Source: Bacteroidota bacterium (lineage in GTDB: Bacteria > Bacteroidota > Bacteroidia > B-17B0 > Aurantibacillaceae). Taken from it: a DNA stretch of 64,000 nucleotides. A program made the translations under genes and the position numbers. This document shows, piece after piece, positions 8,033 through 59,461 of the stretch; within the stretch, counting starts at the first letter, position 1, and every line of letters begins with the position of its first letter. Where the stretch lies: contig JAUXTT010000019.1 of NCBI GenBank assembly GCA_030684395.1, positions 1-64,000 of the forward strand, given 5' to 3'. Below the pieces are notes generated by a model that worked only from the letters and a program-made list of their open reading frames with translations, had not been told where the DNA came from and made no database searches.

Positions 8033-8060
8033 TACCAACATAGTACTGATAATATATTAA

Positions 8061-8091
8061 ACGTCCTGACGGCATCGTCAGGACGTTTTTT
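8061..8091 (+). terminator. Rho-independent terminator, ACGTCCTGAC family
   Basis: A perfect 11-bp stem (ACGTCCTGACG / CGTCAGGACGT) closes a GCAT loop and runs into six T residues. It ends the CHU_C gene and insulates the ABC transporter gene starting at 8119. An almost identical stem follows yajC at 12291. Confidence 0.9.
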
Positions 8092-8118
8092 GTTTACTTT
8101 TACAGAAGATAAATTATT

Positions 8119-12267: not shown

Positions 12268-12287
12268 TTGCTCTTTTACAGTTGTTT

Positions 12288-12323
12288 TAAACGTCCTGAC
12301 ACTATTGTCAGGACGTTTTGTTT
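12288..12323 (+). terminator. Rho-independent terminator, ACGTCCTGAC family
   Basis: An 11-bp stem ACGTCCTGACA / TGTCAGGACGT with a CTAT loop is followed by TTTGTTTT. It ends the yajC unit. The stem is nearly identical to the one at 8061. Confidence 0.88.
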
Positions 12324-12385
12324 TATAACAAATGGTGTGTACATTGTATCAACTAATTAATACAGCAGTCTGAATAAAAGTTAAA

Positions 12386-19609: not shown

Positions 19610-20896
19610 ATGATATTCTTACGCGAATACCGTAAATATTTATTGACTGCTTTTCTCTATTACTTTACTGCTTTTTCCCTCTTATTTATTGTACTGTATA
19701 GTACAGGTAAATTAAATATATTTTCCAATACTTCTTTTTTAAACTGGGATGCTGCTCATTATTTCTCGGTGAAAGAGCATGGCTACGACCCGGTTAATAC
19801 TGCTTTTTTTCCGTTGTTCCCTTTTTTTTGGAAATTAGTTAAGCTATCACCTATTGGAATTGGCTTCCTTAATTTCAGTTTGTTTTTAGCTGCTATTAGC
19901 TTGTTGTGTACAGAAATGAAATTGAAGCTCACACACACATTATTAGTATTATCGGTTCCAGGTCTTTTTTTTATGTTTCTGCCATACGCCGAAGCTCTTT
20001 TCTTTGTGAGCGGAACAATTGCTATTGTTGGATTAAAGCGTGATAGATTGTGGTTAACAGTTGTGGGGCTTTTCCTTTGTAGTTTGTGCCGACCAACTAC
20101 TTTTATTTTTATTCCAGCAATTGTTATTGTTTATTATTTTTCTGTTGGACAAAATGAGGCAAAGGTCCCGATACCTGCCCGACTGGGTCATTCAGGCGGG
20201 GCTATCGGGAGGAAGAAATTTTTTGTTAACTCTGCTATCTCAGCTTTTGTGCTTGTTGCAGGTTTGATGTTAAGTTTTTTCATTCAAAAAGTCGGAACAG
20301 GGCAGTGGTTTACTTTTTTTGATTCGCAGGAAAAATGGGGCAATAAATTTGGAATACCCATATTACCCTTGCATACATGGGGAGGCGATAATATAAAACG
20401 ATATGAATCAAGTGCTTTTTTGATAGGTGTTGTTTGTGCTGTAATGCTTATTTTACTTCTCTTTAATAAACGCCTGAGAGAAAAATTTAATTTCCCTAAG
20501 TATGTAGTATTTTCATTCGCATATTTGGCAGGGGCTACAGGAGTTGTTTTGTTGTACCGGGGTGGACTTTTATTTAGCCTCAATCGTTTTATTTATGCAA
20601 CACCTTTTGTTATAGTTGCACTTGCTTATTTCATTGCTAAGTTTTCCTTTACTATAAAGCAAAGTGTTATATTTTTCTTTGGATATATTATTTTTTCTAC
20701 ATTGTTTGCCAGTTATTCTCACATTCATAATTTATTATGTTTTGCCATTGTAGGGCTTATTTTGTCGGGAGTTTTGCTACTTACCAATAAAAACAAATAC
20801 ATTTCATTAATAGCTACCATTGTTCTGATCCTTGTAAACAATGTGATTGCCTATCATTTAATTAGTAGATTTTTAACTGGTTTTTGGGTGGCTTGA
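19610..20896 (+). CDS. Polytopic GT-C-type glycosyltransferase, PIG-V-like
   Basis: A 428-aa membrane protein with ten or more hydrophobic segments. The first loop reads NWDAAHYFSVKEHGYDP then TAFFPLFPFFWKLV; the acidic WDAxHY followed by FFPLFP is the signature of the PIG-V/GT76-like mannosyltransferases, which use lipid-linked sugars. It may glycosylate a lipid or a secreted protein, possibly one from this operon, but acceptor and sugar are unknown. Residues about 185-202 (PIPARLGHSGGAIGRKK) are polar and unlike the rest; they come from a palindromic repeat inserted in frame. It is the last gene of the four-gene operon. Confidence 0.75.
   Translation: MIFLREYRKYLLTAFLYYFTAFSLLFIVLYSTGKLNIFSNTSFLNWDAAHYFSVKEHGYDPVNTAFFPLFPFFWKLVKLSPIGIGFLNFSLFLAAISLLCTEMKLKLTHTLLVLSVPGLFFMFLPYAEALFFVSGTIAIVGLKRDRLWLTVVGLFLCSLCRPTTFIFIPAIVIVYYFSVGQNEAKVPIPARLGHSGGAIGRKKFFVNSAISAFVLVAGLMLSFFIQKVGTGQWFTFFDSQEKWGNKFGIPILPLHTWGGDNIKRYESSAFLIGVVCAVMLILLLFNKRLREKFNFPKYVVFSFAYLAGATGVVLLYRGGLLFSLNRFIYATPFVIVALAYFIAKFSFTIKQSVIFFFGYIIFSTLFASYSHIHNLLCFAIVGLILSGVLLLTNKNKYISLIATIVLILVNNVIAYHLISRFLTGFWVA
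20166..20210. repeat. 45-bp palindromic element inserted in frame in the GT-C gene
   Basis: The element begins TCCCGATA and ends TATCGGGA, with an imperfect G+C-rich inner inverted repeat (CCTGCCCG ... AGGCGGGG). Its length is a multiple of three and it keeps the frame open, adding 15 codons. The same end sequence makes the palindromes at 27262 and 56548. Confidence 0.75.
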
Positions 20897-27184: not shown

Positions 27185-27261
27185 TTTGAAAATGGCTGGA
27201 ATTTGGAAATGAATAATTCATTATCAAACCTGCCCGTCCGGTAGGCGGGTTAGCACATTTC

Positions 27262-27281
27262 ATCCCGATAGCTATCGGGAT
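27262..27281. repeat. Perfect 20-bp palindrome at the 3' end of nadE
   Basis: ATCCCGATAGCTATCGGGAT is a perfect palindrome. It contains the nadE stop codon (27272-27274) and the two codons before it. A second G+C-rich imperfect inverted repeat (CCTGCCCG...GGCGGG) lies 17 bases to its left. The core TCCCGATA/TATCGGGA recurs at 20166 and 56548. Confidence 0.8.
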
Positions 27282-28054
27282 TTCAAGTCCTTTGGTATCA
27301 AACAAACCGGAATAGGATCCATTTTGTGTTTGTTAGCCTTGTTTCGGCTGGTATATATTTTCATCACCTCCTGTTGGCGCTCGTTCAAAATGTATTCGTG
27401 TTCGTTCTCGATGTATAGCATCGCCCATTCCAACTCATCATAGGTAGCCCCAATCTGATCTTCATCGGTTCTTCCATCTGCAAATAACCCGTCTGTTGGC
27501 CGTGCGTTTAAAATGCTCTCAACCACGCCCACCTCGGCAGCCAAAGTATATACTTCACTTTTCATAAGGTCCGCAATTGGGCTAATATCAACACCTCCGT
27601 CGCCATACTTGGTATAAAAACCAATTCCAAAATCTTCTATTTTATTTCCGGTACCTGCAACTAATAGTTTATGGTGCCCTGCAAAAGCATACAAGGTAGT
27701 CATTCGTAAACGTGCGCGTGTATTAGCCATCGTAAGAAAATCCTGTATATCTTTTGGGTAAGCGTTTTCCATTTTTTCGAGCATTCCGGTTAAATCAACA
27801 ATATGTGATTCAACATTACTGAAATTTTTCTTCAGCCATTCAACATGCTCCAATCCCCTGTTATGCTCTTCATAGCTTTGGCGGATGGGCATTTTTAACA
27901 CCATGCATCGTTTTCCGGTTAATGCACAAAGTGTAGAAGTGAGCGCAGAGTCAATGCCTCCCGAAATGCCTATAACAAATCCGTCTGTTTTCGATTTGTC
28001 AGAATATTCTTTTAACCAATTTACAAGATGATTTATAATTTCCTTTTTTTTCAT
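27272..28054 (-). CDS. nadE: NAD(+) synthase, ammonia-dependent type
   Basis: A 260-aa enzyme of the last step of NAD synthesis: ATP-dependent amidation of deamido-NAD. The PP-loop is SGGIDSA (31-37), with further conserved parts GNKIEDFGIGFYTKYGDGGVD, DLMKSEVYTLA and PTDGLFADGRTDEDQIGATYDELEW. It lacks the N-terminal nitrilase domain, so ammonia or a separate glutaminase is the nitrogen source. Near gldB as in other Bacteroidota, but here a barrel gene lies between. Its last residues and stop fall inside a palindromic repeat. Confidence 0.95.
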   Translation of the reverse strand: MKKKEIINHLVNWLKEYSDKSKTDGFVIGISGGIDSALTSTLCALTGKRCMVLKMPIRQSYEEHNRGLEHVEWLKKNFSNVESHIVDLTGMLEKMENAYPKDIQDFLTMANTRARLRMTTLYAFAGHHKLLVAGTGNKIEDFGIGFYTKYGDGGVDISPIADLMKSEVYTLAAEVGVVESILNARPTDGLFADGRTDEDQIGATYDELEWAMLYIENEHEYILNERQQEVMKIYTSRNKANKHKMDPIPVCLIPKDLKSR

Positions 28055-28066
28055 GGTTGTAAGGTA

Positions 28067-28120
28067 TAAAAAAATCCCCCCGTCATTCCGAGCTTGTCGA
28101 AGAACGGGGGGATTTTTTTA
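28067..28120 (-). terminator. Strong hairpin terminator with GAGCTTGTCGAAG loop
   Basis: A perfect 17-bp stem (TAAAAAAATCCCCCCGT and its complement) surrounds a 20-base loop. T runs occur on both strands, so it could work in either direction; here it ends the barrel gene at 28132 before nadE. The loop sequence GAGCTTGTCGAAG recurs in the terminator at 46020. Confidence 0.88.
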
Positions 28121-46019: not shown

Positions 46020-46061
46020 AACGCCCCGGTCGCTGAGCTTGTCGAAGTGCGGGGCGTTTTG
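46020..46061 (+). terminator. Terminator with GAGCTTGTCGAAG loop
   Basis: ACGCCCCG and CGGGGCGT flank a 21-base loop, followed by TTTTG. It ends the SprB-repeat gene. The loop shares 13 bases with the terminator at 28067. Confidence 0.85.
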
Positions 46062-56547: not shown

Positions 56548-56565
56548 TCCCGATAGCTATCGGGA
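56548..56565. repeat. 18-bp palindrome upstream of polA
   Basis: TCCCGATAGCTATCGGGA is the same palindrome as at the end of nadE. It lies 34 bases before the polA ATG, close to or inside its promoter region. The 234-bp gap around it also holds AT-rich CATTATCAAAT-type repeats. Confidence 0.8.
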
Positions 56566-56599: not shown

Positions 56600-59461
56600 A
56601 TGACTCAAGATCATCCAAAAAAACTCTTTCTTCTTGATGCTTATGCATTAATATACCGTTCTTATTTTGCATTTGCGAATAATCCACGGATCAACTCACA
56701 AGGTTTTAATACTTCTGCTATTTTTGGTTTTACCAATACCTTACTTGAAGTTTTGAAGAAGGAAAAGCCAACGCATATTGCGGTTGTATTTGATCTTGCC
56801 GGACCAACTCAACGTCACGAGGAATTTGAAGCATACAAAGCTAATCGTGAAGAAATGCCAGAAGATCTTCAGAAAAGCATTCCGTATATTTATAAATTAC
56901 TCGAAGGCTTCCGTATCCCGGCCTTATCTATGGCAGGCTACGAAGCAGATGATCTTATCGGAACACTTGCAAAAAAAGCAGAAATAAATGGATTCTGTAC
57001 TTACATGATGACTCCCGATAAAGATTACGGACAGTTGGTAGATGAGAACACTTTTATTTACAAACCTGCCCGTTTGGGTAATGGTGTTGAGATCCTTGGT
57101 GTTCCTGAGATCTGCAAGAAGTGGGAAATTCAGAATGTAGCTCAGTTGATCGATATTCTTGGTTTGATGGGCGATAAGGTTGATAATATTCCCGGCATTC
57201 CCGGAGTAGGGGAGAAGACTGCTATTCAGTTTATAAAAGATTATGGAAGCGTTGAAAACCTCTATAACAATACCGACAAACTAAAAGGTAAAATGAAAGA
57301 GAAAGTGGAAGCGAATAAAGAGCTTGCATATCTTTCCAAAAAACTGGCAACTATTACTTTAGATGTTCCTGTTGAATTTAATGAGGAAGAATTAACGCGT
57401 AAAGAAATTGATAAAGAACTGTTGAAAGAACTGTTTAAGGAACTTGAATTCAGAAGACTGGCGCAAACCCTTTTGGGAGAAGATATTTCTGAGGGTACAG
57501 AAACAGAAACAGCCGCTTCGGCAAGCTCAGCAACCGGAAAAGTATCTTCACAAACAAAGAAAGCCGCAGCTGCCGGACAGTTTGATATGTTTGGTGAGAC
57601 CGAGTTAATTGATATCAACAGCGAAGAAAATGTAGCAACTAATTTTAAAACATACAAAGATATTGATCACACTTATGAGCTGATCGATACTCCCGAAAAA
57701 ATAAATACACTTCTTACACTGTTAAACTCGCATACCGAATTTTGTTTTGACAGTGAAACTACTTCACTCGACACATTAGAAGCGGAAGTAGTTGGTTTCT
57801 CATTTGCAGTGGAGCCGCACAAGGCTTATTATGTGCCGGTTTCAGCTGACAGGGCTGAAGCTGTTAAAACCATTGAATCTTTCCGTTCGTTATTTGAAGA
57901 CACAACAAAAATACTCATCGGTCAAAACATAAAATATGATCTGCAGGTGCTGAAGAACTATAACATCGAGATCAAAAATAAAATGTTCGATACCATGGTT
58001 GCGCACTTTTTGCTGAATGCAGATATGCGTCATAACATGAACATTTTAGCTGAAACTTATTTAAATTATTCGCCTATAAGTATAGAAACTTTGATAGGTA
58101 AAAAAAGTAAGGCGGGGCAATTGAATATGCGTGATGTAGATATTAATCTAATTACCGAATACGCTGCAGAAGATGCTGACATTACACTACAATTAAAAAA
58201 TGCATTCGCACCTGAATTAAAGAAAACAGAAACTGAAAAGCTATTTGAGGAGATCGAGGTTCCGTTGATCCATGTATTATCTGATATGGAACGTGAAGGA
58301 GTTCATCTGGATAAAGAAAATCTTCGTTTGTATTCGGCTGAACTGGAAAAGGATATTGTAGCTGTAGATAAAGAGATTCAGGAACTTGCAGGAACACCAT
58401 TCAATACTTCATCGCCAAAACAGGTAGGGGAGATATTATTCGATTACCTGAAGATTATTGATAAACCAAAGAAAACAAAAACAGGACAATACTCAACCGG
58501 TGAAGATGTACTTTCGAAACTGGCAAATAAACATCCGATAGTAGATAAGATCCTTGATTACCGGGAGCTGGTGAAATTGAAAAGCACCTATGTAGATTCA
58601 TTGCCTTTATTGATAAGTAGTCGTACAGGCCGTATTCACACCAGCTACAATCAGGTGGTTGCAGTTACCGGACGTTTAAGTTCTGATAATCCGAACCTGC
58701 AAAACATTCCAATTCGTACTCCGCGAGGAAGAGAAATTCGTAAAGCATTTATTCCGCGTGATAAAGATTATATTTTGTTAAGCGCCGATTATTCTCAAAT
58801 AGAATTGCGTATTGTTGCTGCAATGAGTGGCGATCCAAACATGTGTGAAGCATTTAATTTGGGTAAAGATATTCACACAGCTACAGCTGCAAAGGTTTAT
58901 GGTATTGAAGAAAGTGAAGTAACCAAAGAAATGCGTTACAAAGCTAAGAGTGTAAACTTCGGAATTATTTACGGACAAGGAGCTTTTGGTTTAGCTGAGA
59001 ATTTGAATATCTCAAGAGGTGAGGCAAAAGAACTGATCGAGAATTATTTCAAAGAATACGGAAGCATAAAACAATACATGGACGACTCAGTAAATTTTGC
59101 ACGAGAGCATGGTTATGTTAAAACTCTTATGGGAAGAAAACGTTACCTGAGAGATATTCTATCTGCAAATGCAGTTGTGCGCGGTTTTGCCGAGCGAAAC
59201 GCAATCAACGCACCAATTCAAGGTTCTGCCGCTGATATGATCAAGATCGCTATGATCAATATTCATAAAGATCTGAAACCAATGGGGCTTCGTTCTAAAA
59301 TGATACTTCAGGTGCATGATGAGTTAGTGTTTGATGTTCACAAAGAAGAATTATCCATTATTCAACCGATCATCGAAAAGCGAATGAAAACTGCAATGGA
59401 TCTGAGTGTTCCATTGGAAGTTGGAATTGGCATGGGTTCTAACTGGTTGGAAGCACATTAA
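56600..59461 (+). CDS. polA: DNA polymerase I
   Basis: A 953-aa enzyme for Okazaki fragment processing and repair. Residues 1-290 are the 5'-3' nuclease (LFLLDAYALIYRSYFAF, ADDLIGTLAKKAE, GIPGVGEKTAIQF). Residues about 360-540 are a 3'-5' exonuclease with the metal motif FDSETTSLD, so proofreading is likely active. The polymerase domain follows with motif A DYSQIELRI, motif B RYKAKSVNFGIIYGQGAFG and motif C LQVHDELVFDV. A linker near 295-340 is rich in Ala, Ser and Thr. Confidence 0.97.
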   Translation: MTQDHPKKLFLLDAYALIYRSYFAFANNPRINSQGFNTSAIFGFTNTLLEVLKKEKPTHIAVVFDLAGPTQRHEEFEAYKANREEMPEDLQKSIPYIYKLLEGFRIPALSMAGYEADDLIGTLAKKAEINGFCTYMMTPDKDYGQLVDENTFIYKPARLGNGVEILGVPEICKKWEIQNVAQLIDILGLMGDKVDNIPGIPGVGEKTAIQFIKDYGSVENLYNNTDKLKGKMKEKVEANKELAYLSKKLATITLDVPVEFNEEELTRKEIDKELLKELFKELEFRRLAQTLLGEDISEGTETETAASASSATGKVSSQTKKAAAAGQFDMFGETELIDINSEENVATNFKTYKDIDHTYELIDTPEKINTLLTLLNSHTEFCFDSETTSLDTLEAEVVGFSFAVEPHKAYYVPVSADRAEAVKTIESFRSLFEDTTKILIGQNIKYDLQVLKNYNIEIKNKMFDTMVAHFLLNADMRHNMNILAETYLNYSPISIETLIGKKSKAGQLNMRDVDINLITEYAAEDADITLQLKNAFAPELKKTETEKLFEEIEVPLIHVLSDMEREGVHLDKENLRLYSAELEKDIVAVDKEIQELAGTPFNTSSPKQVGEILFDYLKIIDKPKKTKTGQYSTGEDVLSKLANKHPIVDKILDYRELVKLKSTYVDSLPLLISSRTGRIHTSYNQVVAVTGRLSSDNPNLQNIPIRTPRGREIRKAFIPRDKDYILLSADYSQIELRIVAAMSGDPNMCEAFNLGKDIHTATAAKVYGIEESEVTKEMRYKAKSVNFGIIYGQGAFGLAENLNISRGEAKELIENYFKEYGSIKQYMDDSVNFAREHGYVKTLMGRKRYLRDILSANAVVRGFAERNAINAPIQGSAADMIKIAMINIHKDLKPMGLRSKMILQVHDELVFDVHKEELSIIQPIIEKRMKTAMDLSVPLEVGIGMGSNWLEAH

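Follow-up and report, generated by a model that had tools for sequence, protein, structure and literature searches.

Most work on selfish palindromic repeats within protein genes concerns Rickettsia and Wolbachia, which live inside cells and have small genomes, and the Rickettsia palindromic elements (RPEs) add about 30-50 residues to their host proteins. RPEs are 105-146 bp long and are found in frame in conserved genes, and also in tmRNA and M1 RNA; an RPE-bearing product that was tested, guanylate kinase, remained active (PMC2229807, PMC10969869). The GTAG- and CGTC-tagged REPs are palindromes of 20-40 bp in many copies, mostly intergenic with a minority inside ORFs in several phyla, among them DNA-repair genes and tRNA synthetases, where a stop codon is sometimes supplied; CGTC repeats have been noted in Bacteroidetes (PMC3733652). 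MITEs such as Correia, RUP and ERIC are short inverted-repeat sequences moved in trans and sometimes fused to ORFs. They are 70-300 bp long and their target is usually duplicated. Here we describe a 45-bp palindromic element within a gene of a Bacteroidota bacterium, in a stretch of 64,000 nucleotides (the window) from a draft genome of 4.9 Mb in 44 contigs.

A composite palindrome in a membrane protein gene

As read from the window the element is TCCCGATACCTGCCCGACTGGGTCATTCAGGCGGGGCTATCGGGA, with the ends TCCCGATA and TATCGGGA. The preliminary description had taken it for a single 45-bp repeat; its sequence and ends were confirmed, but it is a nested pair and not one unit. The layout TCCCGATA-CCTGCCCGACTGGGTCATTCAGGCGGG-GCTATCGGGA (8 + 27 + 10 = 45) is that of a composite in which a 27-bp hairpin, B, is nested in an 18-bp perfect palindrome, A, and removal of the 27 bp leaves A as TCCCGATAGCTATCGGGA (Table 1). 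The B family has the form CCTGCCCG-(variable)-CAGGCGGG with a unit length of about 20-36 bp, and its arms are mismatched, with the mismatch conserved across copies. The consensus of A, YCCCGATAGCTATCGGGR, contains no tag, and its flanks show no more than a mild base bias. Its outermost base pair varies (T-A or C-G), yet is complementary in 26 of 27 core copies, which palindrome correction polishing the ends could explain. In the window TCCCGATA occurs 8 times compared to 0.92 +/- 0.86 in shuffles, hence the repeat is not due to chance.

Table 1. Coordinates of the repeats and the host gene (window positions unless a contig is named)
Feature	Position	Strand	Remarks
Host gene, multi-pass membrane protein, GT-C-like	19610..20896	+	open frame of 428 aa without stop; homologues found
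45-bp composite	20166..20210	+	in frame in the GT-C gene, codons 186-201; missing from 30 homologue loci
A, left part, TCCCGATA, 8 of 18 bp	20166..20173	+	A is TCCCGATAGCTATCGGGA; solo copies known
B, 27 bp, CCTGCCCGACTGGGTCATTCAGGCGGG	20174..20200	+	between bases 8 and 9 of A; other composites nested likewise
A, right part, GCTATCGGGA, 10 of 18 bp	20201..20210	+	read from the window
Solo B, CCTGCCCGTCCGGTAGGCGGG	27229..27249	+	intergenic
Solo A	27263..27280	+	reaches into the 3' end of ORF 27272-28054 (minus strand), whose TAG stop it provides
Solo A	56548..56565	+	intergenic, upstream of a polA-like gene
Composite copies	C39 (window), C26:9681, C31:330521, C35:14845, C43:75889		one arm changed in C43
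A in tRNA-like DNA	L072:12650-12705 (G000:C31:52.65 kb); L208:1450-1551 and 2165-2290 (G001:C1); L293 and L297 near 1500 (G030)		

The element begins at base 2 of codon 186 and ends at base 1 of codon 201 (VPIPARLGHSGGAIGR). No Pfam match was obtained for the host protein, and the GT-C name is that of the preliminary description. We collected 30 homologue loci from relatives and public genomes (two overlap one gene; the closest is 43% identical), and residues 186-200 were missing in all 30, with at most one residue in those columns. The preliminary description had proposed a palindromic element inserted in frame without a stop, and had also considered that orthologues might hold the same segment encoded by unrelated DNA. 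The latter was seen in none of the loci, and the former is supported by the empty loci together with the copies found elsewhere. As the homologues are distant (at most 43% identical), the exact target bases and the bases gained cannot be read at this site; the difference is made up of the 45 bp of the element and some flanking loop variation. AlphaFold2, run with a four-sequence alignment (mean pLDDT 65.5), gave helices at residues 164-185 and 196-230 with a coil at 186-195 in between; pLDDT falls below 50 over residues 185-196, and the insert is predicted as a low-confidence loop joining two helices.

The window also holds hairpins of other sequence. Near-identical ones at 8057-8094 and 12287-12324 (AAACGTCCTGAC..GTCAGGACGTTT, followed by T runs) are terminator-like, as are those at 28075-28120 and 46020-46060, which carry GAGCTTGTCGAAG in one arm or loop and form another repeated motif family.

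In-frame copies and their empty sites

Gene context was counted in a 1.66-Mb genome sample (1.6 Mb of stretches plus the window), along with pattern searches, and genes were called by a simple codon-usage script, which gave 1066 genes and 84% coding DNA. The sample held 39 copies of A with at most 2 mismatches: 28 intergenic, 10 in called genes and 1 at a gene edge. Eight of the ten are convincing, about 20% of the sampled copies; the other two were discounted, since a weak, short ORF holds one and the 5' extension of a FolC-like gene the other. The density of A in genes is approximately one-eighteenth of the intergenic density. The hosts are HtpG, LeuS, FtsZ (in the C-terminal linker), a DegT aminotransferase, a RecD-like helicase, a CapD-like polysaccharide protein, a cysteine-desulfurase-like protein and one unnamed protein; names were given by reading the sequences, and HtpG, DegT and LeuS were matched by solved structures. 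The convincing copies read only as PIAIG or PDSYR, while the third frame of A contains TAG, and no convincing in-gene copy in the TAG frame was detected in the 1.66-Mb sample.

Six in-gene copies of B were found in the same sample, the GT-C one included. Hosts of in-frame B are SpoIIE-type phosphatase, sigma-factor-like, DUF3822-like, MtgA-like, LpxK and lipoprotein-like proteins. All 7 of 7 in-gene copies of B have a length divisible by 3, compared to 11 of 25 intergenic ones (Fisher p=0.01). Judging from the open frames the inserts would be translated, and at least a dozen palindromic repeats of 18-45 bases appear to be read as short loops in core genes of this genome. In-frame copies of the A family were also seen in independent genomes (G001, G186) and in viral contigs.

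The LeuS gene (G000:C16:251889-255300, L318) carries, besides the A insert, an internal DUF559 nuclease-like domain of approximately 100-150 residues (Pfam PF04480, E 1.8e-38). This domain is bordered by SPSPRE and SPLEREAEGEA, and palindrome DNA, CCCTCTCCAAAGGAGAGGG, lies at its edge.

Empty sites were sought with one chimeric query of 15 fragments against 8 relatives, after which the loci were compared; these comparisons are between genomes at the level of species. All six A sites compared (HtpG, LeuS, DegT, RecD-like, CapD and cysteine-desulfurase-like) were empty in relatives. Where the alignment was clear, the net gain was 5 codons at the LeuS, DegT, RecD-like (in G001), CapD and cysteine-desulfurase-like sites. 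The same gain was found in HtpG against its two closest relatives (G001 and G006), on which the empty site is based because HtpG lengths vary in more distant ones. The gain at A sites is thus 15 bp, though the palindrome has 18. For B, the SpoIIE-type site exceeds its G001 relative by exactly 30 bp (GGPK|ARLNEGTFGQ|GKKF), a clean insertion, and the LpxK and DUF3822-like sites gained 24 and 21 bp.

Closely related DNA accounts for the difference of A. At G030:C11:534461 the filled site reads GTTA-18mer-CGG and that of a relative GTTA-AAA-CGG, with which a second relative agrees, so that 3 bp were replaced. At a second G030 site 6 bp (GCGAAC) were replaced with a net gain of 12, and a replacement of 6 bp with this net gain was also found for the hsdM pair of G186 and G151 (89% DNA identity over 1583 bp). 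Where close DNA exists, the 18-mer hence replaces 3 or 6 bp of target, giving a net gain of 15 or 12. The codons of relatives at the DegT (AGA AAT), HtpG (GAG ATC) and RecD-like (GAA TTC) sites seem to fit a 3-bp replacement well. That the replaced length differs is unlike what a simple transposase would be predicted to give. The viral contigs checked for close empty sites yielded one larger compound insertion, one shared insertion and one that matched only itself, and a reciprocal search with the in-gene copies of G001 against the genome sample gave no matches.

Genomic distribution and target preference

In the genome, CCCGATA/TATCGGG arm pairs at most 40 bp apart are found at 81 places, and the reversed control pattern at 0. 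There are about 80 copies of the 16-bp core of A, and the exact 18-mer alone has 55. B occupies at least 21 places with differing centres, and the composite exists in 5 copies, one slightly degenerate. The centres of B are closely alike in all five composites (ACTGNNTCATT), which points to the composite having multiplied as one unit to these places. The exact 18-mer was detected in 73 of 199 genomes at 1 to 79 copies each, with a patchy distribution even inside one genus, and in 37 viral contig stretches, where several lie within ORFs.

Viral contigs also show A within other palindromes: in L227, L229, L235, L249 and L259 it is nested in a palindromic repeat (CTCACCCC..CTCTCC / GGAGAG..GGGGTGAG), and in L260, L248 and L244 it sits in the middle of terminator-like hairpins. 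Despite these striking single cases, we detected no excess of A in pre-existing hairpins in G000 and no clear one in the viral contigs.

Some copies of A lie within tRNA-like sequence, at the anticodon or D-loop position, in three genomes (Table 1), and several of these are in a truncated copy of a tRNA 5' part that immediately precedes an intact tRNA. Such copies appear to be commoner than the tRNA share of the DNA would suggest. In G001:C1 a tRNA-like sequence (L208:1690-1840) is split near the anticodon by an insert of ~70-90 nt; the tRNA array to which it belongs has several other odd inserts. A pair of paralogous intergenic stretches of ~100 bp, G000:C16:86726 and L031:1537 (G000:C35), hold A in the shared context CTTCATTTGC-A-TGTGCGC..GCATGGCTATTT, so that A can at times be duplicated along with longer surrounding DNA. 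One copy of this pair has gained a B of net 20 bp, which is not a multiple of 3.

The flanks of A were examined in three genomes pooled, with both ends taken together since the element has no direction. Adenine stands at the first outward position in only 4 of 126 ends, against an expected fraction of 0.317 (p=1.5e-15); bias extends over positions 2-4 and is not seen at positions 5-8. An enzyme with a mirror-symmetrical target preference of about 11 bp would give such a bias, and the bias argues against purely random capture. In a small sample of intergenic copies (n=18), none was in a convergent gap, 13 were in unidirectional and 5 in divergent gaps.

Origin of the insertions and relation to described systems

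The parallel to Rickettsia drawn in the preliminary description holds for the mode and not for the identity of the element. Like RPEs and the protein-coding palindromes of Wolbachia, A and B are repeats lying in frame in unrelated conserved genes, where they would be read as extra peptide, and they also occur between genes and in RNA genes (PMC2229807, PMC10969869); at our sites this is seen from open frames and empty sites. The units of 18 bp (A), about 20-36 bp (B) and 45 bp (composite) all fall below the about 105-146 bp of RPEs (PMC2229807), which have terminal repeats of about 12 bp. Here 4-15 codons are added in a 4.9-Mb genome, composites are nested and 3-6 bp of target are replaced. 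A and B work like RPEs but are not RPEs, a distinction drawn from unit size.

A and B share with the tagged REPs their size, copy number and mostly intergenic location, with a minority of copies inside ORFs and a stop codon occasionally supplied (PMC3733652). A differs in being a perfect palindrome without GTAG or CGTC tag (as defined in PMC3733652) and in lacking, in this genome, a link to a tyrosine transposase. Whereas convergent and unidirectional gaps are preferred by REPs, 0 of 18 intergenic copies of A lie between convergent genes. A and B are short inverted repeats as MITEs are, and fused to ORFs, but filled and empty DNA show 3 or 6 target bases lost at A and no duplication. By these defining features A and B belong neither to RPEs, nor to the REP/RAYT system, nor to MITEs. 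That such elements are undescribed for this clade, as proposed in the preliminary description, agrees with the open-access literature searched, where intragenic short REPs are on record for other phyla (PMC3733652). The sequence CCCGATAGCTATCGGG was found in none of the papers searched. As these are open-access papers, priority is not certain; measured against this literature the two families and their manner of insertion appear new, while the general kind is known from Rickettsia and a few other bacteria.

From the repeats with their symmetrical flank preference, the empty sites, the net lengths that keep the frame and the few target bases replaced by A, we consider it highly probable that the GT-C segment arose when a mobile palindromic repeat, non-coding by origin, inserted in frame, with an enzyme acting in trans and selection as the filter. 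A and B would multiply in the genome as two repeat families; a B copy would have inserted into an A copy, and the composite then spread to five places, one being the GT-C loop. The enzyme would insert the palindrome with a loss of 3-6 bp of target, and is probably a dimer on double-stranded DNA, as the target preference is mirror-symmetrical. Insertions in other frames or positions would be removed by selection, leaving those with a net length that is a multiple of 3, in a frame without the TAG of A and in tolerant loops. Most likely the peptides gained in this way (PIAIG, PDSYR and PIPARLGHSGGAIG) are passengers, either neutral or slightly harmful.

We find it unlikely that the repeats are REPs moved by a REP-associated tyrosine transposase (RAYT, Y1/HUH family) with some landing in genes. 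The short hairpins, the high copy number and the REP-like conserved mismatch in the arms of B speak for it, and a Y1 gene is commoner in genomes with A (64 of 73) than without (77 of 126; Fisher p=5e-5, uncorrected for genome size and ancestry). However, A or B borders none of the four Y1_Tnp genes in this genome, one of which has its own, different hairpins, and no Y1 match (E 0.001) was found in G061 (21 exact copies of A; 99% complete, 2 contigs), G044 (23), G031 (15) or G060 (8), so the transposase was not detected wherever the repeat is abundant. The undirected, untagged palindrome and the symmetrical flank bias are also unlike single-strand insertion. In two genomes with a single copy of A, G186:C43 (L322) and G151:C9 (L323), A lies inside or beside hsdM/hsdS of type I restriction loci, with a Y1 gene 1.5-2.9 kb away that is not bracketed by A-like ends; such loci are a possible vehicle for the lateral spread of A. 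DUF559 nucleases were rejected as mobilisers, as the four genes have no A ends, and among the Y1_Tnp and DUF559 genes no transposase or nuclease could be tied to A or B.

Less probable still is that replication errors, by template switching at quasi-palindromes, made the palindromes in place without any mobile element. The complementary outer pair of A and the few target bases replaced would agree with this, but the same core stands at about 80 places and in 73 genomes, and the specific composite at five; in-place errors copy local sequence and not a fixed one, which argues against them as the sole cause, though they may still polish the ends of A. Ordinary coding sequence resembling a repeat by chance is practically ruled out by the homologue test (0 of 30), and near-identical 43-bp matches to the composite lie in intergenic DNA elsewhere; the PARLG in the polA-like gene of the window at 57065 (KPARLGNG), which might favour this explanation, we take to be native to Bacteroidota polA, and set it aside. 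Hardly more credible is an artefact of assembly or binning: repeats can misjoin in a draft of 44 contigs, but at all sites tested the homologous protein stays colinear on either side of the insert, no insert shifts the reading frame, and in-frame copies of this family recur in the independent genomes and viral contigs.

For the mobile repeat preferred above, we tentatively propose a new insertion system of Bacteroidota, in which an enzyme on double-stranded DNA would put tiny palindromes at mirror-symmetrical targets, replacing 3-6 bp, and would be a continuing source of in-frame loops; as part of this same tentative proposal it would also hit genes, tRNA-derived sequence and the A and B repeats themselves. 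The outcome known from small intracellular genomes is met here in a Bacteroidota genome of 4.9 Mb, where HtpG, LeuS and FtsZ are among the core genes affected; at 4-15 codons the elements are short enough to be missed by annotation, and they resemble natural indels. This raises the testable question of which enzyme moves an 18-bp perfect palindrome, and the many clean insertions of 4-5 residues of known sequence are material for testing how proteins accept new loops.
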